Of a stretch of 24,078 nucleotides of DNA, positions 7,519-15,661 are shown piece after piece. This DNA is from a virus. The notes beneath the pieces are model-generated. The model was not told the DNA's origin and searched no databases. It worked only from the letters and a program-made list of their open reading frames with translations. Every line of letters starts with the position of its first letter. Position 1 is the stretch's first letter. Location: the IMG/VR virus record IMGVR_UViG_3300032092_000250, positions 1-24,078 of that record; one strand, 5' to 3'. The position numbers and the translations under genes were made by a program.

Positions 7519-7761
7519 TCAAAATGGTATATCGTCTTCGTCTTTTGGTAAACCTTGGTAACCCTCTTTTGGTTTTGGGTCATTGATATACGCCCAGCCA
7601 TCCCAACCACCCTTGATTAGCGGTGTCACATCTAGCTTTAACATATCCCCATTTTTGGTGTCAATTATTGAACCAATTTTTTGGTATCTGTTTTTCTGTT
7701 GACCATCTTTGTTCAGATAAGTGCCTTGAATGACGCTGATTTCTTTAAGTATTTTTGACAT
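7519..7761 (-). CDS. SSB-like small protein with acidic DDIPF tail
   Basis: An 80-residue protein. The strand pattern (ISVIQGTYLNKDGQQKNRYQKIG, IIDTKNGDMLKLDVTP) is compatible with half of an OB-fold. The C-terminus, PKDEDDIPF, copies the acidic tip ending in I-P-F that single-stranded DNA-binding proteins use to recruit partners. The gene lies directly downstream of an exonuclease and an annealing protein, which strengthens a role in ssDNA handling. It is much shorter than canonical SSB (about 110 residues to the end of the OB domain), so the assignment is tentative. GGAG lies seven bases before the ATG. Confidence 0.55.
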   Translation of the reverse strand: MSKILKEISVIQGTYLNKDGQQKNRYQKIGSIIDTKNGDMLKLDVTPLIKGGWDGWAYINDPKPKEGYQGLPKDEDDIPF

Positions 7762-7763
7762 TT

Positions 7764-8405
7764 TTATTCTCCAATGATTGATTTTAGGGACATGACTTTG
7801 GCATCTACTTCTGCCAAAAATTTAATAACTTCGTCTTCGGCTATTTTTAGCCAATCAGCATTACGATCAACCCGAAAAACGAAGACTTGTGCTTTGGCTG
7901 GCATCCGTGGGTCAAAGACCACGTAATCGCACCAAGACCTATCAGCACAGCGCATTTGCCACTGCATCTGTGCGTAGTACTTGGCATCCACTGGATTGCC
8001 GCCCTGTGCGTGAATCAACCAACATTCTAAAGCAGTGCTGGATGATGGGCATTTGATCTCAATCATGCCATCATCACCCACCAAACCATCAGGCGAGGCT
8101 CCAGACGCTTCAATATGAGGGTGAGGTATAAACCCAACTTCTTCAACCATTTCGCCCGTGAGCACCTCATAAGCGGCTCGAGCAAAAGGTTCTTGTTCCG
8201 TACCCCACTGCATTGCCGCATTGGAATAAGAATCAGCTCTAGTTTGGGTGATGCGCTCAAGTACAAGTTGTGTCATGTAATTGGTACGGTTAGTGCTGTA
8301 ACCAGTTTTTGTTTTCGCAAGCACATCAGCCAATCGGCTTGCTGTGACTTTGCCAAGACGCATGGCAAACCATTCGTCTGTGCCTTGGTCCATTGTTTCA
8401 ATCAT
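7764..8405 (-). CDS. YqaJ/lambda-type recombination exonuclease
   Basis: A 213-residue PD-(D/E)XK nuclease. The start at 8405 is chosen because it shares ATGA with the preceding stop, although the frame opens further upstream. Landmarks: QGTDEWFAMRLGKVTAS (7-23), the family signature of YqaJ; WGTEQE (67-72); SPDG with Asp106; and EIK with Glu116 and Lys118, the catalytic core. It should digest one strand from double-stranded DNA ends, leaving ssDNA for the annealing protein encoded just upstream. Together they form a phage recombination module comparable to lambda Red. All key residues are present. Confidence 0.9.
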   Translation of the reverse strand: MIETMDQGTDEWFAMRLGKVTASRLADVLAKTKTGYSTNRTNYMTQLVLERITQTRADSYSNAAMQWGTEQEPFARAAYEVLTGEMVEEVGFIPHPHIEASGASPDGLVGDDGMIEIKCPSSSTALECWLIHAQGGNPVDAKYYAQMQWQMRCADRSWCDYVVFDPRMPAKAQVFVFRVDRNADWLKIAEDEVIKFLAEVDAKVMSLKSIIGE

Positions 8406-8962
8406 AATTTTGCCTTTGCTTGATCTTTGGCTGCAATCACTCTCTTTTGCCATTCAGCATCACCATTGCAAGCGGCATAAGCGGCTTTGTAGGAGTTCTT
8501 CAAGCTGTCTTGATCAGTAGATGCCTCAATAGCCGCCAAATGATCTACGAGGGCATTTTCATTGATTGGTGGCTTTTCAATAACTGTTTTGCGTGTGGCG
8601 GCATTTCCGTCATCGTCCTCTGGTGCGATACCGCAAGCCGCCATGAGGCTATATCTCCGAGCATAAGTCAAAGCACTACCATAGCCCTGAGGGTCTTGCT
8701 TGCTGGCTGGTACGTGTAATTTGCCACATTCCAGCATCTCGCCTGATTCGTGGATAAATACAGTCTCTACAGTGACCCCGTTCATGTCCTCACTTGTTCT
8801 TTGAATAAGCGCAATGCCAGCCTCGTTCAAACCCTCAATAACAGCCTCTACGCAAGCACTGAGGTCTGCATATCTACTTTTAAAATGCGGGTTGGTGGAT
8901 GATTTAAGAGCAGGGCCAAATGCCTTTTGAGCCTTGACCAATGCGGTTGCTATATTTTTCAT
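8402..8962 (-). CDS. erf: ERF-family single-strand annealing protein
   Basis: A 186-residue protein starting at ATG 8962, which has GGAGAGG upstream; the longer frame to 9025 lacks support. The N-terminus (ALVKAQKAFGPALKSSTNPHFKSRYADLSA) and the signature GYGSALTYARRYSLMAACGI followed by an acidic EDDDGNAA are hallmarks of the ERF superfamily, whose founder is P22 Erf (204 residues). It anneals complementary ssDNA and is used for genome circularisation or recombination. The C-terminal 70 residues are less conserved and helical. The stop overlaps the exonuclease start by four bases, so the two are translationally coupled. Confidence 0.9.
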   Translation of the reverse strand: MKNIATALVKAQKAFGPALKSSTNPHFKSRYADLSACVEAVIEGLNEAGIALIQRTSEDMNGVTVETVFIHESGEMLECGKLHVPASKQDPQGYGSALTYARRYSLMAACGIAPEDDDGNAATRKTVIEKPPINENALVDHLAAIEASTDQDSLKNSYKAAYAACNGDAEWQKRVIAAKDQAKAKL

Positions 8963-8964
8963 GT

Positions 8965-9057
8965 TCAGCCTCTCCAAGCTAGTAATACGCCAATGCCGCC
9001 AAAGATAACAATGGCTAAAAAGCACTCAATAAGTGTTTGGATAATTTTGTGTTTCAT
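8965..9057 (-). CDS. 30-residue membrane peptide in the recombination operon
   Basis: A short leftward frame starting at ATG 9057, which overlaps the stop of the upstream gene as ATGA, and ending at TGA two bases before the ERF start. The product begins MKHKIIQTLIECFLAIVIFG and is one membrane segment ending LLAWRG. The tight packing supports translation, and the ERF ribosome site (GGAGAGG) lies in its last codons. Function unknown; it may act mainly as a translation-coupling leader. Confidence 0.5.
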   Translation of the reverse strand: MKHKIIQTLIECFLAIVIFGGIGVLLAWRG

Positions 9058-11777: not shown

Positions 11778-11959
11778 AATGCCCAGAATGTGGGACATGG
11801 ACAATCGTAAAAGAAACCAGAACAAGCACAACAAACACACGCAGACGCAGGCTTGAATGTGCAAATGAACACAGATTCACTACTTTGGAGACCATAATTG
11901 TTTCAAAAACACCAATACGTCAGAAGCAAAAAACTATTAAAACTGGTAGCAAGTCTTGA
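11774..11959 (+). CDS. NrdR-like zinc-ribbon protein
   Basis: A 61-residue protein. Cys3, Cys6, Cys29 and His33 form a zinc ribbon, and the surrounding sequence (MKCPECGTWTIVKETRTSTT, then RRRRLECANEHRFTTLE) follows the zinc-ribbon half of the ribonucleotide-reductase repressor NrdR (C-P-x-C, then RRRRxC, then RFTTxE). The ATP-cone half is absent, so it cannot be a full NrdR. It may bind DNA or act as a small transcription factor of the phage. ATGA overlap with the gene before. Confidence 0.65.
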   Translation: MKCPECGTWTIVKETRTSTTNTRRRRLECANEHRFTTLETIIVSKTPIRQKQKTIKTGSKS

Positions 11960-12221
11960 TTGTCAACTCTGCGGCTCAAACCATTTTGTTCAAGCGGCTC
12001 ATACAAATTGGGGCGGTGGTAAAGGCAGAAGCATCAAAGCTGATGATAATTTAACCGCCGCATTGTGCATGACTTGCCATTACGAAATTGATGCAGGGGC
12101 TAAATGGTCGAAAGTGGAAAGACAAGAGGCGTGGCAAACAGCACACCACAAAACAGTGCAGTTATTGTTGCAAACAAACCAATGGCCTGTTGACATACCT
12201 ATACCAAACACAGCAAAATGA
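11898..12221 (+). CDS. HNH/DUF968-like protein with TTG start
   Basis: A 107-residue protein. Cys22 and Cys25 (CQLCG), then VQAAHTNWGGGKGRSIKADD, then LCMTCHYEID give the Cys-Cys, His, Cys-His layout of DUF968/HNH-type phage nucleases, which are thought to serve in recombination. No ATG precedes the first cysteine motif. TTG 11898 is the likely start because GGAG lies seven bases before it (11887-11890), even though this makes a 62-base overlap with the zinc-ribbon gene. It is the last gene of the replication operon. The fold call is moderate; nuclease activity is inferred. Confidence 0.65.
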   Translation: MFQKHQYVRSKKLLKLVASLDCQLCGSNHFVQAAHTNWGGGKGRSIKADDNLTAALCMTCHYEIDAGAKWSKVERQEAWQTAHHKTVQLLLQTNQWPVDIPIPNTAK

Positions 12222-12250: not shown

Positions 12251-12272
12251 GGGGCTTCGGCCCCTTTTTTTT
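12251..12272 (+). terminator. Intrinsic terminator with UUCG tetraloop
   Basis: Stem GGGGC / GCCCC closed by the very stable C(UUCG)G loop and followed by eight T residues (12265-12272). It lies 29 bases after the HNH-like gene and just before the ParB-like gene, whose GAGGA ribosome site overlaps the end of the T-run. It should stop most rightward early transcription at the end of the replication operon. Confidence 0.85.
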
Positions 12273-12281
12273 GAGGACACT

Positions 12282-13079
12282 ATGAATCCAGCAGATAAAG
12301 TCGAAAAATGGGCTATTGACAAACTAATACCCTACGCACGCAACGCACGCACGCACTCTGATGAGCAAGTTGCACAGATTGCGGCAAGTATCAAAGAGTG
12401 GGGTTGGACAACGCCAGTGCTGGTGGATGAGCAAGGTAGCATCATCGCAGGGCATGGGCGCACATTGGCGGCTCAAAAACTTAAAATGACAGAAGTGCCT
12501 GTAATGGTGGCAACAGGTTGGTCAGATGCCAAAAAACGGGCTTACATCATTGCTGACAACAAGTTAGCTCAAAATGCTGGCTGGGATAATGTAATGCTAT
12601 CCCTAGAACTTGAAGAACTTAGTAATTTGGGTTTTGATATTGATTTAACTGGATTTGCACCAGAAGAGATTACAGAATTGTCATTCACGGATGCTGATGA
12701 TGAGCAAATTGACAACAGTAAGTACACCAAAAAAATAGATGCACCAGTTTATACGCCAACTGGAGATTGTCCAGGAGTCAATGAGCTGTACGATAAGGTT
12801 AAATACGAAGAATTGACAGCAAAAATATACCAAAACCCTGACATCAAGCAAGAGATAAAAGACTTTTTGTTAGCGTCAGCCGCAAGACACATACGATTTG
12901 ACTTTGAGCAAATTGCGGAGTTCTATGCCCATGCTGACCCAGATTTACAGGAACTTATGGAAGAAAGTGCCTTGGTCATCATTGACTTTGATAAAGCTAT
13001 TGCCAATGGATATGTAAAGCTATCTCAAAACATCAGTGATGTTTACACCAGTGAAAAGGGTGAAGAACATGATGCCTAA
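12282..13079 (+). CDS. ParB-like domain protein with an unassigned C-terminal domain
   Basis: A 265-residue protein starting at ATG 12282 (GAGGA five bases upstream). Residues 1-100 are a ParB/sulfiredoxin-like domain: LIPYARNARTHSDEQVAQIA, then IKEWGWTTPVLVD, then the phosphate-binding box IAGHGRTLAA (55-64) and IADNKLAQNAGWD. In many phages this domain and the linker seen here (LGFDIDLTGFAPEEI) lead into an adenine methyltransferase. Here they lead into a different domain (about 145-265: KYTKKIDAPVYTP, then RHIRFDFEQIAEFYAHAD, then ESALVIIDFDKAIANGYV). I recall similar domains next to TAGT glycosyltransferases. Its role may be sequence recognition or partner loading. Confidence 0.75.
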   Translation: MNPADKVEKWAIDKLIPYARNARTHSDEQVAQIAASIKEWGWTTPVLVDEQGSIIAGHGRTLAAQKLKMTEVPVMVATGWSDAKKRAYIIADNKLAQNAGWDNVMLSLELEELSNLGFDIDLTGFAPEEITELSFTDADDEQIDNSKYTKKIDAPVYTPTGDCPGVNELYDKVKYEELTAKIYQNPDIKQEIKDFLLASAARHIRFDFEQIAEFYAHADPDLQELMEESALVIIDFDKAIANGYVKLSQNISDVYTSEKGEEHDA

Positions 13080-13974
13080 GACCTTTGCCGTGTTTATTCT
13101 GACGCATGGTCGGGCAAATTCTGTTTATACCTACCAAACTCTACGCAAACAAGGTTACACAGGCAAAATTTACCTGATATGTGATAACGAGGATAAGCAA
13201 CTCGATCAATACAAAGAGGTGTACGGCAAAGAGTCAGTCATCATCTTTGATAAACAAGAAGCGATTGATTTTACTGATAGCGGAGATAACTTCAAAAAAC
13301 GCAATAGTGTGGTTTACGCAAGAAATATCAGCTTCAATATTGCAAAAAGCCTTGGTTTGACACACTTTTGGCAACTGGATGACGATTACACAAGGTTTGA
13401 TTACTCGACCAATGAAGAAATGCAGTACATCACATCTGAGAATAAGATTGGCAAACTGGATGATGTTTTGGTTGCATTAATTGAGTTTTTAGACACAACA
13501 CCGTTTCACTCAGTGGCATTTGCACAGGGGGGCGACTTCATTGGTGGCGAGGGTTGCGTATTACTGAGCAAGATGCGAAAAGATGAAATTTACCGAAAAG
13601 TAATGAATTCGTTTATGTTTCGTGTTGATCGCCCCGTTAAGTTTATGGGTCGAATTAACGAGGATGTGAATATGTATGCTGAATGGGGCAGACGTGGCAT
13701 ATTGTTTATGACCACACCGCAGTTACGCTTACAGCAAATCGTGACCCAGCAGAACGCAGGCGGTTTGACTGAAATCTACCTAGACCTTGGCACTTACACC
13801 AAATCGTTCTACTCAGTCATGTATGCACCATCGTGTGTGAAAATCTCAGAAGTGGGCACAAATGACAAACGAATACATCATCAGTTATCATGGAAGCATA
13901 CTGTGCCAAAAATACTAGATGAACAGCATCGCAAACCAAGATTATTATCACGTATCACTAGCACAGTTAAATAA
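13069..13974 (+). CDS. TAGT/GREB1-like glycosyltransferase
   Basis: A 301-residue protein starting at ATG 13069, with AAGGGTGAAG just before; a second ATG follows at once, and the first 11 residues of the longer frame are unsupported. The fold reads as a GT-A glycosyltransferase: AVFILTHGRANSVYT (7-21), KIYLICDNED (33-42), the region RNSVVYARNISFNIAKSLG (78-96), and the DXD-like motif WQLDDDY (101-107). Further on come GGEGCVLLS and RINEDVNMY, the second acidic motif. This matches the TET-associated glycosyltransferase (TAGT) group related to GREB1, proposed to glycosylate modified bases in DNA. It overlaps the ParB-like gene by 11 bases. Confidence 0.7.
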   Translation: MMPKTFAVFILTHGRANSVYTYQTLRKQGYTGKIYLICDNEDKQLDQYKEVYGKESVIIFDKQEAIDFTDSGDNFKKRNSVVYARNISFNIAKSLGLTHFWQLDDDYTRFDYSTNEEMQYITSENKIGKLDDVLVALIEFLDTTPFHSVAFAQGGDFIGGEGCVLLSKMRKDEIYRKVMNSFMFRVDRPVKFMGRINEDVNMYAEWGRRGILFMTTPQLRLQQIVTQQNAGGLTEIYLDLGTYTKSFYSVMYAPSCVKISEVGTNDKRIHHQLSWKHTVPKILDEQHRKPRLLSRITSTVK

Positions 13975-14007: not shown

Positions 14008-14442
14008 ATGAAAAAAACTACTGAAAAATCCACCCAACTGCTTAAAAAAGAGGCAGATAAGCCAAAACAAAATGGCGGTGCACGTGCAGGGTCAGGCCGA
14101 AAGCCATTTTTACCTACTGATGCAGAACGTAAACAGGTCGAGGCAATGTCGGGTTATGGTGTGCCTTTTGAACAAATAGCCGCTTTGGTGCGTGATGGCA
14201 TTGACATAGATACGCTGAGAAAGTACTTTAGCCCTGAACTTGTCAACGGCAAGGCAAAAGCTAATGCACAGGTTGGCAAGGGTATTTTCCAAAAAGCAAT
14301 GGCTGGTGATACGACAGCTCAAATTTGGTGGAGTAAAACGCAAATGCGATGGGCAGAAACCCAAAAGCATGAGTTAACTGGTGCAAATGGTGTGCCGCTA
14401 GAATTTACCAAGATTGAGCGTGTTGTTGTAAAGCATGGATAA
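14008..14442 (+). CDS. Terminase small subunit
   Basis: A 144-residue protein. A basic N-terminus with the GGARAGSGRKP motif (23-33) is followed by a helix-turn-helix-like region (ERKQVEAMSGYGVPFEQIAA, then LRKYFSPEL) and helices likely used for oligomerisation (AQVGKGIFQKAMAGDTTA). This layout is typical of phage small terminase subunits. It selects the packaging site and hands DNA to the large subunit, whose start overlaps its stop by eight bases. The ribosome site GGAGG (13997-14001) is the strongest seen in the window and can pair with AACCT (13987-13991) in a small hairpin. Confidence 0.8.
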   Translation: MKKTTEKSTQLLKKEADKPKQNGGARAGSGRKPFLPTDAERKQVEAMSGYGVPFEQIAALVRDGIDIDTLRKYFSPELVNGKAKANAQVGKGIFQKAMAGDTTAQIWWSKTQMRWAETQKHELTGANGVPLEFTKIERVVVKHG

Positions 14443-15661
14443 AACCCTAAAAATCCAGACTCCAGAGTGGGCTTTGCCTTTACTGGAAGCAAGGCGTTAC
14501 AAGGGGGCATGGGGTGGTCGAGGTTCTGGCAAGTCGCATATGTTTGCCGAGTTGATGGTTGAGATGCACATACTTGACCAAAAGCGCAGAAGCGTTTGTG
14601 TGCGTGAAATACAAAAATCACTGAATCAATCTGTCAAGCGTCTGCTGGAAACCAAAATTGAGGCCATGAACGCTGGCGCATACTTTGAGATACAAGATGC
14701 TGTAATCAAGTCTAAAAAGGGTGATGGTGCAATTATTTTCCAAGGTATGCAAAACCATACAGCCGATTCAATTAAGTCGCTAGAAGGCTACGATTGCGCT
14801 TGGGTTGAGGAAGCTCAGTCCCTCAGTCAGACCAGCCTTGACCTTTTGAGGCCAACAATCCGCAAACCCGATTCAGAACTATGGTTCACTTGGAATCCAA
14901 GACAACAGTCTGACCCTGTGGATTTTCTACTGCGTGGACCTGAACCGCCAACCGATGCCACAGTTATCAAGGTGAACTTTGGTGATAATCCGTGGTTTCC
15001 ACAAGTCTTAAAAGACGAAATGGAGTACGACAAGCGCAGAGACCCTGACAAGTATCAGCACGTTTGGATGGGTCAGTACCTGAGAAACAGTAATGCAAGG
15101 GTGTTCCGCAACTGGAAAATTGACGATTTTGAAGCACCATCAGATGCAATTCATCGCCTTGGTGCTGATTGGGGCTTCTCGGTTGACCCCACTGTTTTGG
15201 TCAGATGCCACATAATCGGGCGCACGCTTTATATTGATTACGAAGCCTATATGGTTGGATGTGAGATTGTGAATACGCCCGAGCTGTTTATGCAAGTCCC
15301 TGAGGCAGAGAAATGGCCTATCGTGGCAGATTCAGCCCGACCAGAGACCATCAGCCACATGAAACGCAATGGCTTTCCTAAGATAATGAACGCAGTAAAA
15401 GGCCCTAAGTCGGTCGAGGAAGGCATTGAGTTCTTGAAGAACTACGACATCGTGGTTCACCCTCGTTGCGTTCACACTATTGACGAATTAAGCCTTTACA
15501 GTTATAAGTCAGACCCATTAACTGGCAGAATATTGCCTATGCTTGAGGACAAGAAAAACCACGTCATTGATGCCTTGCGATATGCTTGCGAGGGTGTCAG
15601 GCGTGCGGCAGTAACGAAAGTAATGAACTTCACGCCATTGCCTACTATGAATAAATGGTAG
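14435..15661 (+). CDS. Terminase large subunit (PBSX-type)
   Basis: A 408-residue packaging motor. Walker A is GGRGSGKS (27-34), Walker B is YDCAWVEEAQ with Glu125-Glu126, and the coupling motif is FTWNP (151-155). The C-terminal RNase H-like nuclease has acidic residues at Asp245 (GADWG), Asp299 (VADSA) and Asp379 (HVIDALRY). All expected motifs are intact. The sequence resembles the PBSX / Terminase_3 family rather than that of P22 itself, so the packaging module is mosaic with respect to the P22-type head genes. It translocates DNA through the portal using ATP and cuts concatemers. Confidence 0.93.
   Translation: MDKTLKIQTPEWALPLLEARRYKGAWGGRGSGKSHMFAELMVEMHILDQKRRSVCVREIQKSLNQSVKRLLETKIEAMNAGAYFEIQDAVIKSKKGDGAIIFQGMQNHTADSIKSLEGYDCAWVEEAQSLSQTSLDLLRPTIRKPDSELWFTWNPRQQSDPVDFLLRGPEPPTDATVIKVNFGDNPWFPQVLKDEMEYDKRRDPDKYQHVWMGQYLRNSNARVFRNWKIDDFEAPSDAIHRLGADWGFSVDPTVLVRCHIIGRTLYIDYEAYMVGCEIVNTPELFMQVPEAEKWPIVADSARPETISHMKRNGFPKIMNAVKGPKSVEEGIEFLKNYDIVVHPRCVHTIDELSLYSYKSDPLTGRILPMLEDKKNHVIDALRYACEGVRRAAVTKVMNFTPLPTMNKW

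Follow-up and report, generated by a model that had tools for sequence, protein, structure and literature searches.

A ParB-adaptor and TAGT glycosyltransferase gene pair ahead of phage terminase genes is a probable TET-independent DNA-glycosylation cassette in an exchangeable DNA-modification slot

The stretch of DNA analysed here (the window) is the 24,078-base virus record IMGVR_UViG_3300032092_000250; it comes from a podovirus-like genome whose portal is of the P22 type. Its central gene order is HNH gene, terminator-shaped hairpin, ParB-type gene, TAGT gene, small and large terminase subunits (TerS and TerL) and portal, with these features:

11898..12221, plus strand: HNH endonuclease (phrog_131, E 3.2e-23), upstream landmark of the exchange slot described below
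12251..12272, plus strand: intrinsic-terminator-like hairpin GGGGCTTCGGCCCC followed by T8, abutting the ParB ribosome-binding sequence GAGGA (12273-12277)
12282..13079, plus strand, ATG at 12282: ParB_N-adaptor protein, 265 aa (PF02195, phrog_620, AlphaFold2 model)
12282..12686, plus strand: its ParB N-domain, approximately residues 1-135, predicted CTP-clamp fold, no HTH (Foldseek against the PDB)
12687..13076, plus strand: its predicted TAGT-specific adaptor domain, approximately residues 136-265, no Pfam family
13069..13974, plus strand, ATG at 13069: TAGT glycosyltransferase, 301 aa (PF20691, predicted GT-A fold)
13378..13386, plus strand: DDD (residues 104-106) of LDDDY, the metal/nucleotide-sugar site of GT-A enzymes
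13660..13665, plus strand: ED (residues 198-199) of INEDV at a helix start, the catalytic-base position in inverting GT-A enzymes
14008..14442, plus strand: TerS (phrog_309, E 5.7e-13), downstream landmark of the exchange slot
14435..15661, plus strand: TerL (PF04466, E 5.4e-32), landmark for the tree of relatives

A first-pass annotation, made from the letters of the sequence, had described a ParB-domain ORF overlapping a TAGT-like ORF by 11 bases, directly before the terminase. Both ORFs are present as claimed and share bases 13069-13079, an AAGG-type ribosome-binding sequence lies ahead of the TAGT start at 13069, and the pair is indeed followed by TerS from 14008, TerL from 14435 and then the portal. 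The LDDDY (13375-13389) and INEDVNMY motifs that it had pointed out were both located in the 301-aa protein. When the window was compared with its relatives, dN/dS was 0.025-0.13 for the ParB and TAGT genes, indicating that both are under purifying selection. Elsewhere in the window (7519-9025, minus strand) lies what appears by inspection to be a recombination-type gene group, comprising YqaJ-like and ERF-like ORFs and a small ORF.

The pair had also been described as isolated by a strong terminator. Judged by its sequence, the GGGGCTTCGGCCCC-T8 hairpin has a convincing terminator shape, and that part of the description holds; the isolation does not, since the hairpin ends right at GAGGA and so leaves no space for a promoter between it and the ParB gene. 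Expression of the pair would therefore need read-through or antitermination. Hairpin and T-run are kept in relatives L008, L009, L010, L011 and L019 and absent from L012, L014 and L016. The position of the hairpin is compatible with late expression, though no proof of it.

Profile searches of both proteins, which the first-pass annotation had called for, gave matches in each case. The ParB protein matched ParB_N (PF02195, E 2.3e-6, residues 8-78) and PHROG 620 (E 1.4e-66). Its AlphaFold2 model (pLDDT 86.1) consists of two well-folded parts with a disordered joint between them. In a Foldseek search of the PDB the N-domain matched Noc, ParB and KorB structures with CTP or CDP (E 1e-6), the matches being confined to approximately residues 1-135, and G57, R60 and N93 are conserved. 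The HTH (parS-binding) domain is absent, as judged from the model and the Foldseek matches. The C-terminal part, of about 110 residues, is a separate, well-modelled helical domain in which Y148, Y157, R202, Y215, Q223, E227 and D235 are invariant in 61 homologues. No Pfam family was found for this domain, and the listed PDB and viral-structure matches of the protein were ParB-domain matches only. On the evidence of the model, the protein appears to be a ParB/CTP-clamp N-domain joined to a TAGT-specific adaptor, and it is predicted to tether the glycosyltransferase to DNA. No ParA partner was recognised among the ORFs of the window by inspection. A plain partition role for the ParB protein was considered and rejected, as the model has no HTH domain and the adaptor is linked to TAGT.

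The TAGT protein matched PF20691 over its full length (E 1.9e-34, 119.8 bits against a cut-off of 27.5, all 205 profile positions, 1-205, covered). An AlphaFold2 model built from 91 homologues reached a pLDDT of 92.9 and a pTM of 0.89, and its Foldseek matches in the PDB were GT-A enzymes (best E 2.6e-5): collagen galactosyltransferase (COLGALT1), SpsA, TarS/TarP, chondroitin polymerase, GalNAc transferases and AvpGT with the nucleoside Ara-A. The GT-A-like fold proposed in the first-pass annotation is borne out by this model and these matches. No variation was seen among 91/91 homologues at D105 and D106 in LDDDY or at D199 in INEDV, as expected for a predicted active enzyme, and the model has a helix at residues 198-207. 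A GT-A fold with DxD and xED motifs is thus supported by the model, and the enzyme looks like an inverting one. A sequence search of the window TAGT against the PDB gave no match, and hhalign found no significant match between its profile and the TAGT of T6. The window TAGT is therefore too distant from that of T6 for T6 chemistry or function to be transferred to it. For the same reason the PHROG name 'beta-glucosyl-HMC-alpha-glucosyltransferase' is no guide to what it does.

Linkage between adaptor and enzyme was counted over 137 non-redundant TAGTs, each with at least 1.5 kb of upstream sequence, from seeds picked without regard to ParB. An adaptor lies near the TAGT in 134 of the 137, and 94 of these 134 also carry a ParB N-domain. 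The reciprocal search, starting from the adaptor, found a TAGT in all 67 new, independently fetched loci (directly adjacent in 47), showing that the linkage is obligate. The hosts in which linked TAGTs were seen span Pseudomonadota, Bacillota, Bacteroidota, Actinomycetota, Spirochaetes, candidate phyla and haloarchaea; a search of plasmids found no TAGT. A second TAGT subtype, seen in a Pseudomonadota genome (L340 1285-2797, minus strand) and at L045 11232-12392, has a different C-terminal partner domain on ParB or an unrelated N-terminal extension on TAGT.

In about a quarter of cases (34 of 125 adjacent ones) the adaptor comes without ParB. Among 47 complete ParB-less adaptors, 14 start with Qxx[LM]F (0.2 in shuffles) and 38 contain [LMIF]F (11 in shuffles), counts that are not independent, the sequences being related. 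The N-terminal peptide of these adaptors is like a beta-clamp-binding peptide in sequence. Such adaptors are found, for example, at L042, L122, L123, L125, L128, L129, L189 and L197, many with a clamp-binding-like N-terminal peptide. In large phages the adaptor-TAGT unit adjoins DNA polymerase and sliding-clamp genes, and in T4 the alpha-glucosyltransferase is known to co-purify with the gp45 clamp (PMC13216743). ParB and the clamp peptide may be alternative means of holding the same enzyme on DNA.

We then turn to the stretch ahead of the terminase, which was inspected in 80 relatives fetched by TerL (at least 88% identical); 60 rows, the window and MW202867 included, were labelled. The slot behind ParB holds TAGT in 6 of these rows, an N6/N4 methyltransferase in 18, Mom in 7, a C5 methyltransferase in 5 and TET in 3, where beyond the profile-checked representatives the Mom, C5 and TET labels were given by eye from similarity to these and the N6/N4 labels by phmmer. 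Profile matches of the representatives reached 6.5e-55 for Mom (PF25680), 1e-53 for C5 (PF00145) and 2.7e-24 for PF01555; the TET representative matched PF12851 at 7.5e-10, above the cut-off. ParB is absent in 21 of the 60 rows, and in two of the three TET rows a further gene sits between ParB and TET. In the relative MW202867, where TerS is 77%, TerL 80%, the portal 69% and the ParB part 70% identical to the window, a methyltransferase fused to ParB stands in place of the adaptor and TAGT. On the TerL tree the slot label changes at least 30 times (shuffled mean 33), a count that recombination within the terminase or chimeric assembly could inflate without erasing the pattern. The sister of the window is a relative with a ParB-methyltransferase (L360, 100% support), and TAGT carriers also pair with a TET carrier (L408 with L372) and with a methyltransferase carrier (L417 with L427).

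The slot between HNH gene and terminase is thus an exchangeable ParB-linked DNA-modification site, and exchange within it argues for a shared substrate class, though it is no proof of one. The first-pass description of the pair as a candidate DNA-modification unit is strongly supported by this context and by the swap of partners with methyltransferases, Mom and TET. That description had noted neither the two-part build of the ParB protein nor the exchange at this site. The slot also provides a rule for finding further modification enzymes, namely to inspect the gene behind ParB and ahead of the terminase. In the same slot at L382 1425-3022 and L372 456-2068, ParB is followed by a protein with a FASDDF motif and then by TET; the FASDDF-motif protein had no Pfam or PHROG match and is possibly another GT-A enzyme.

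If TAGT acts on DNA, it needs an acceptor. The first-pass annotation had seen no TET/JBP or hydroxymethyl-pyrimidine gene in the window, and profile searches likewise found none there; nine relatives sharing the window's TAGT again gave no match. These searches of the window, a genome fragment, and of the nine relatives covered TET/JBP (controls L374 and L382 positive) and the thymidylate-synthase-like hydroxymethylases of the PF00303 family (T6 control positive). TET/JBP was also absent from 48 other TAGT-bearing virus records, T6 apart, with mycobacteriophages Nigel and Zemanar serving as family control for the profile. Among 49 virus records (T6 included as control), the hydroxymethylase family was found in T6 and one Vibrio jumbo phage only. 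TET was absent from 20 whole host genomes, E. coli included, that carry a linked TAGT, and among 398 Pseudomonadota searched for TET no TAGT carrier matched. We also considered TET as a partner of the window-type TAGT and rejected it: none of the TAGT carriers searched was positive, and in other relatives TET replaces TAGT in the slot. An acceptor that depends on TET is accordingly not supported, both families being absent from the window and the nine relatives and TET occupying the slot instead. Many genomes carry the two genes alone, including Rac-type E. coli phages and, among complete phages, c5 and HHTV-2; for HHTV-2 a literature search found no report of modified DNA. Isolated phages with the pair include Lactobacillus phages c5 and phi jlb1, HHTV-2 and Nocardia phage NTR1.

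Because the searches gave neither TET/JBP nor a hydroxymethylase, the sugar most likely goes onto either a canonical base or a mark that some unrecognised enzyme puts in place. The canonical base is the simpler choice and agrees with the methyltransferases and Mom found in the same slot; otherwise the mark might come from an unrecognised enzyme or from the adaptor itself. We propose, tentatively and as somewhat doubtful, that a GT-A enzyme tethered by ParB or the clamp may sugar an unmodified base of dsDNA directly, without prior oxidation or hydroxymethylation. If true, one-step DNA glycosylation would be widespread in bacterial and haloarchaeal phages and in Rac-type prophages of E. coli. 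No glycosyltransferase is known to us that modifies canonical DNA bases directly, and every characterised DNA glycosyltransferase we know requires a hydroxyl, either on the base or on a sugar.

Other loci are more elaborate. A neighbouring radical SAM gene (CxxxCxxC protein) accompanies the adaptor-TAGT unit for 31 of 169 non-redundant TAGTs, examples being L120, L131, L133, L040, L155, L188, L191 and L173. Tandem arrays of three to five TAGTs behind one adaptor occur at L197 1440-6849 (up to five) and L166 3304-6846, and could possibly build an oligosaccharide on DNA stepwise; the L197 array includes a cytidylyltransferase-like gene. An N-terminal P-loop kinase-like domain is fused to TAGT at L127 6498-7898, L153, L184 and L198, and a free P-loop kinase is found at L166 and L194, with a weak match to PF18751, the kinase family of the Nigel/Zemanar TET cluster. 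Nucleotidyltransferase genes are added at L212 and L226 and SAM methyltransferase genes at L084, L122 and L123. With these additions the adaptor-TAGT core seems to be extended into longer pathways for a sugar or side chain. PAPS-reductase-type genes lie upstream of ParB-TAGT clusters at L173 1273-2037 and L133 4986-5825, the one in L173 (PF01507 match) immediately adjoining the cluster.

The pair is also present in E. coli, where at least 80% of the query was covered in 885 of 5426 complete genomes (16%). It is located in Rac-type prophages ahead of the terminase (ON470614 20903-22619) and annotated as ynaK plus 'hypothetical' or 'GREB1-related protein', the latter being the RefSeq name. K-12 retains a 254-base remnant of it, the ynaK-ydaY stretch being a deletion remnant. 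Bclasvirinae mycobacteriophages have a modification cluster that ends at the terminase and whose first gene is overlapped or abutted by a gene with a ParB domain. The cluster comprises TET, ADDT and a P-loop kinase in Zemanar, TET and a kinase in Nigel, DpdA, QueC, QueD, QueE and FolE in TA17A, and PAPS reductase in Kronus. Rosebush, of the same genus as TA17A, has dPreQ0 in about 28% of its G (PMC6884629). Heath gp2 (Mycobacterium phage, L356 785-1759; phrog_6059) carries the name 'queuine tRNA-ribosyltransferase', while its Zemanar equivalent and two phrog_6059 matches score as TET/JBP (PF12851); the name is likely a misannotation. ParBc domains have been described fused to MTases and near the cytosine carboxymethyltransferase CmoX, the ParBc role being called unknown (PMC12783734). 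The present analysis suggests what phage ParB domains may do in modification systems, in a form open to testing.

Altogether, the pair is probably a cassette that glycosylates DNA independently of TET, housed in a slot where DNA-modification genes are exchanged. As the same slot in relatives holds other DNA-modifying enzymes, the pair most likely sugars the phage's own DNA. In the mechanism we infer, the ParB N-domain would hold the complex on DNA and the C-terminal adaptor would bind and position TAGT, which would take a sugar from a nucleotide-sugar of the host and attach it to phage DNA. This transfer may occur late in infection, next to packaging, a timing "before packaging" that gene position suggests, and the packaged sugared DNA may then resist the nucleases of the next host.

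The nearest alternative keeps DNA as the target and has TAGT glycosylate a hydroxyl-bearing base made by an unrecognised enzyme, encoded elsewhere in the phage, by the host, or residing in the adaptor. It would fit the need of the characterised DNA glycosyltransferases of T4 and T6 for a hydroxyl on base or sugar (PMC13216743), the invariant Y, R, Q, E and D residues of the adaptor, and the radical SAM, kinase or MTase genes added at some loci. We nonetheless regard it as unlikely, because the TET/JBP and thymidylate-synthase-like families are absent from the window and nine relatives under positive controls, and many genomes (c5, HHTV-2, Rac-type E. coli phages) make do with the two genes. 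With this alternative counted in, DNA is very likely the target of TAGT.

The enzyme might instead glycosylate a protein, such as the terminase, a capsid or tail protein, ParB or a host DNA-binding protein, with ParB merely localising it. The pair does adjoin head genes, the GT-A fold also suits protein glycosyltransferases (COLGALT1 and GalNAc-T are among the PDB matches), and a protein is the reported substrate of GREB1, a distant eukaryotic relative of TAGT. A protein target, which we consider quite improbable, is at odds with the exchange against DNA-base-modifying enzymes at this site and with the location in replication clusters in large phages. That ParB serves partition or regulation, with TAGT as an unrelated passenger gene, as the database name 'ParB-like partition protein' would have it, is disfavoured to the point of being barely credible: the ParB model has no HTH domain, inspection revealed no ParA, and adaptor and TAGT are linked in 134/137 cases and reciprocally in 67/67.

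The reading of the pair as a DNA-glycosylation cassette narrows the question posed by phages that have TAGT but no known acceptor pathway; in 288 of 753 phage genomes TAGT occurs without alpha- or beta-GT (PMC13216743). Such phages form a system with a dedicated adaptor, and the TAGT locus swaps with known DNA-modifying enzymes. The outcome would be phage DNA glycosylation, a kind of modification already known, with a real chance of new chemistry. The presence of the pair in 885/5426 E. coli genomes makes the question testable in laboratory E. coli, and since two genes suffice in most cases and 16% of complete E. coli genomes hold a version of the pair, a new DNA base could be found from one expression strain and one mass-spectrometry run.

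Several known systems share parts of this arrangement. Iyer, Aravind and colleagues reportedly proposed that TAGT proteins glycosylate oxidised bases made by TET/JBP enzymes. The TAGT family is common to those systems and the window, and TET occurs in the same ParB slot of relatives; here, however, TET and TAGT replace each other and no TET is found in the ten window-type records. Phage fusions of ParB_N to methyltransferases have the same ParB N-domain (70% identical) at the same site before the terminase, whereas the enzyme of the window is a glycosyltransferase, on a separate polypeptide joined through the adaptor domain. In near relatives of the window, homologues of Mu Mom (PF25680) occupy this slot behind the same ParB, but Mom is unrelated to TAGT; it modifies a canonical base, adenine, adding a carbamoylmethyl group and not a sugar. 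In the Rosebush-type DpdA cluster a ParB protein overlaps a base-modifying enzyme and the cluster ends at the terminase, as in the window; modified DNA is proven for Rosebush. Unlike the window, that cluster contains a base-exchange enzyme and a biosynthetic pathway. T6 ggt (beta-glucosyl-HMC-alpha-glucosyltransferase) belongs to the same PF20691/PHROG 842 as the window TAGT, lies in a DNA-replication cluster and, as a TAGT relative, acts on DNA (PMC13216743). Its substrate is glucosylated 5-hydroxymethylcytosine and a dCMP hydroxymethylase is adjacent, while the window type has neither, has an adaptor partner and is very distant in sequence. T4 alpha-glucosyltransferase has a GT-B fold and needs 5-hydroxymethylcytosine (PMC13216743), in contrast to the GT-A fold predicted for the window TAGT, but its co-purification with the gp45 clamp parallels the clamp-like peptide of the ParB-less adaptors.
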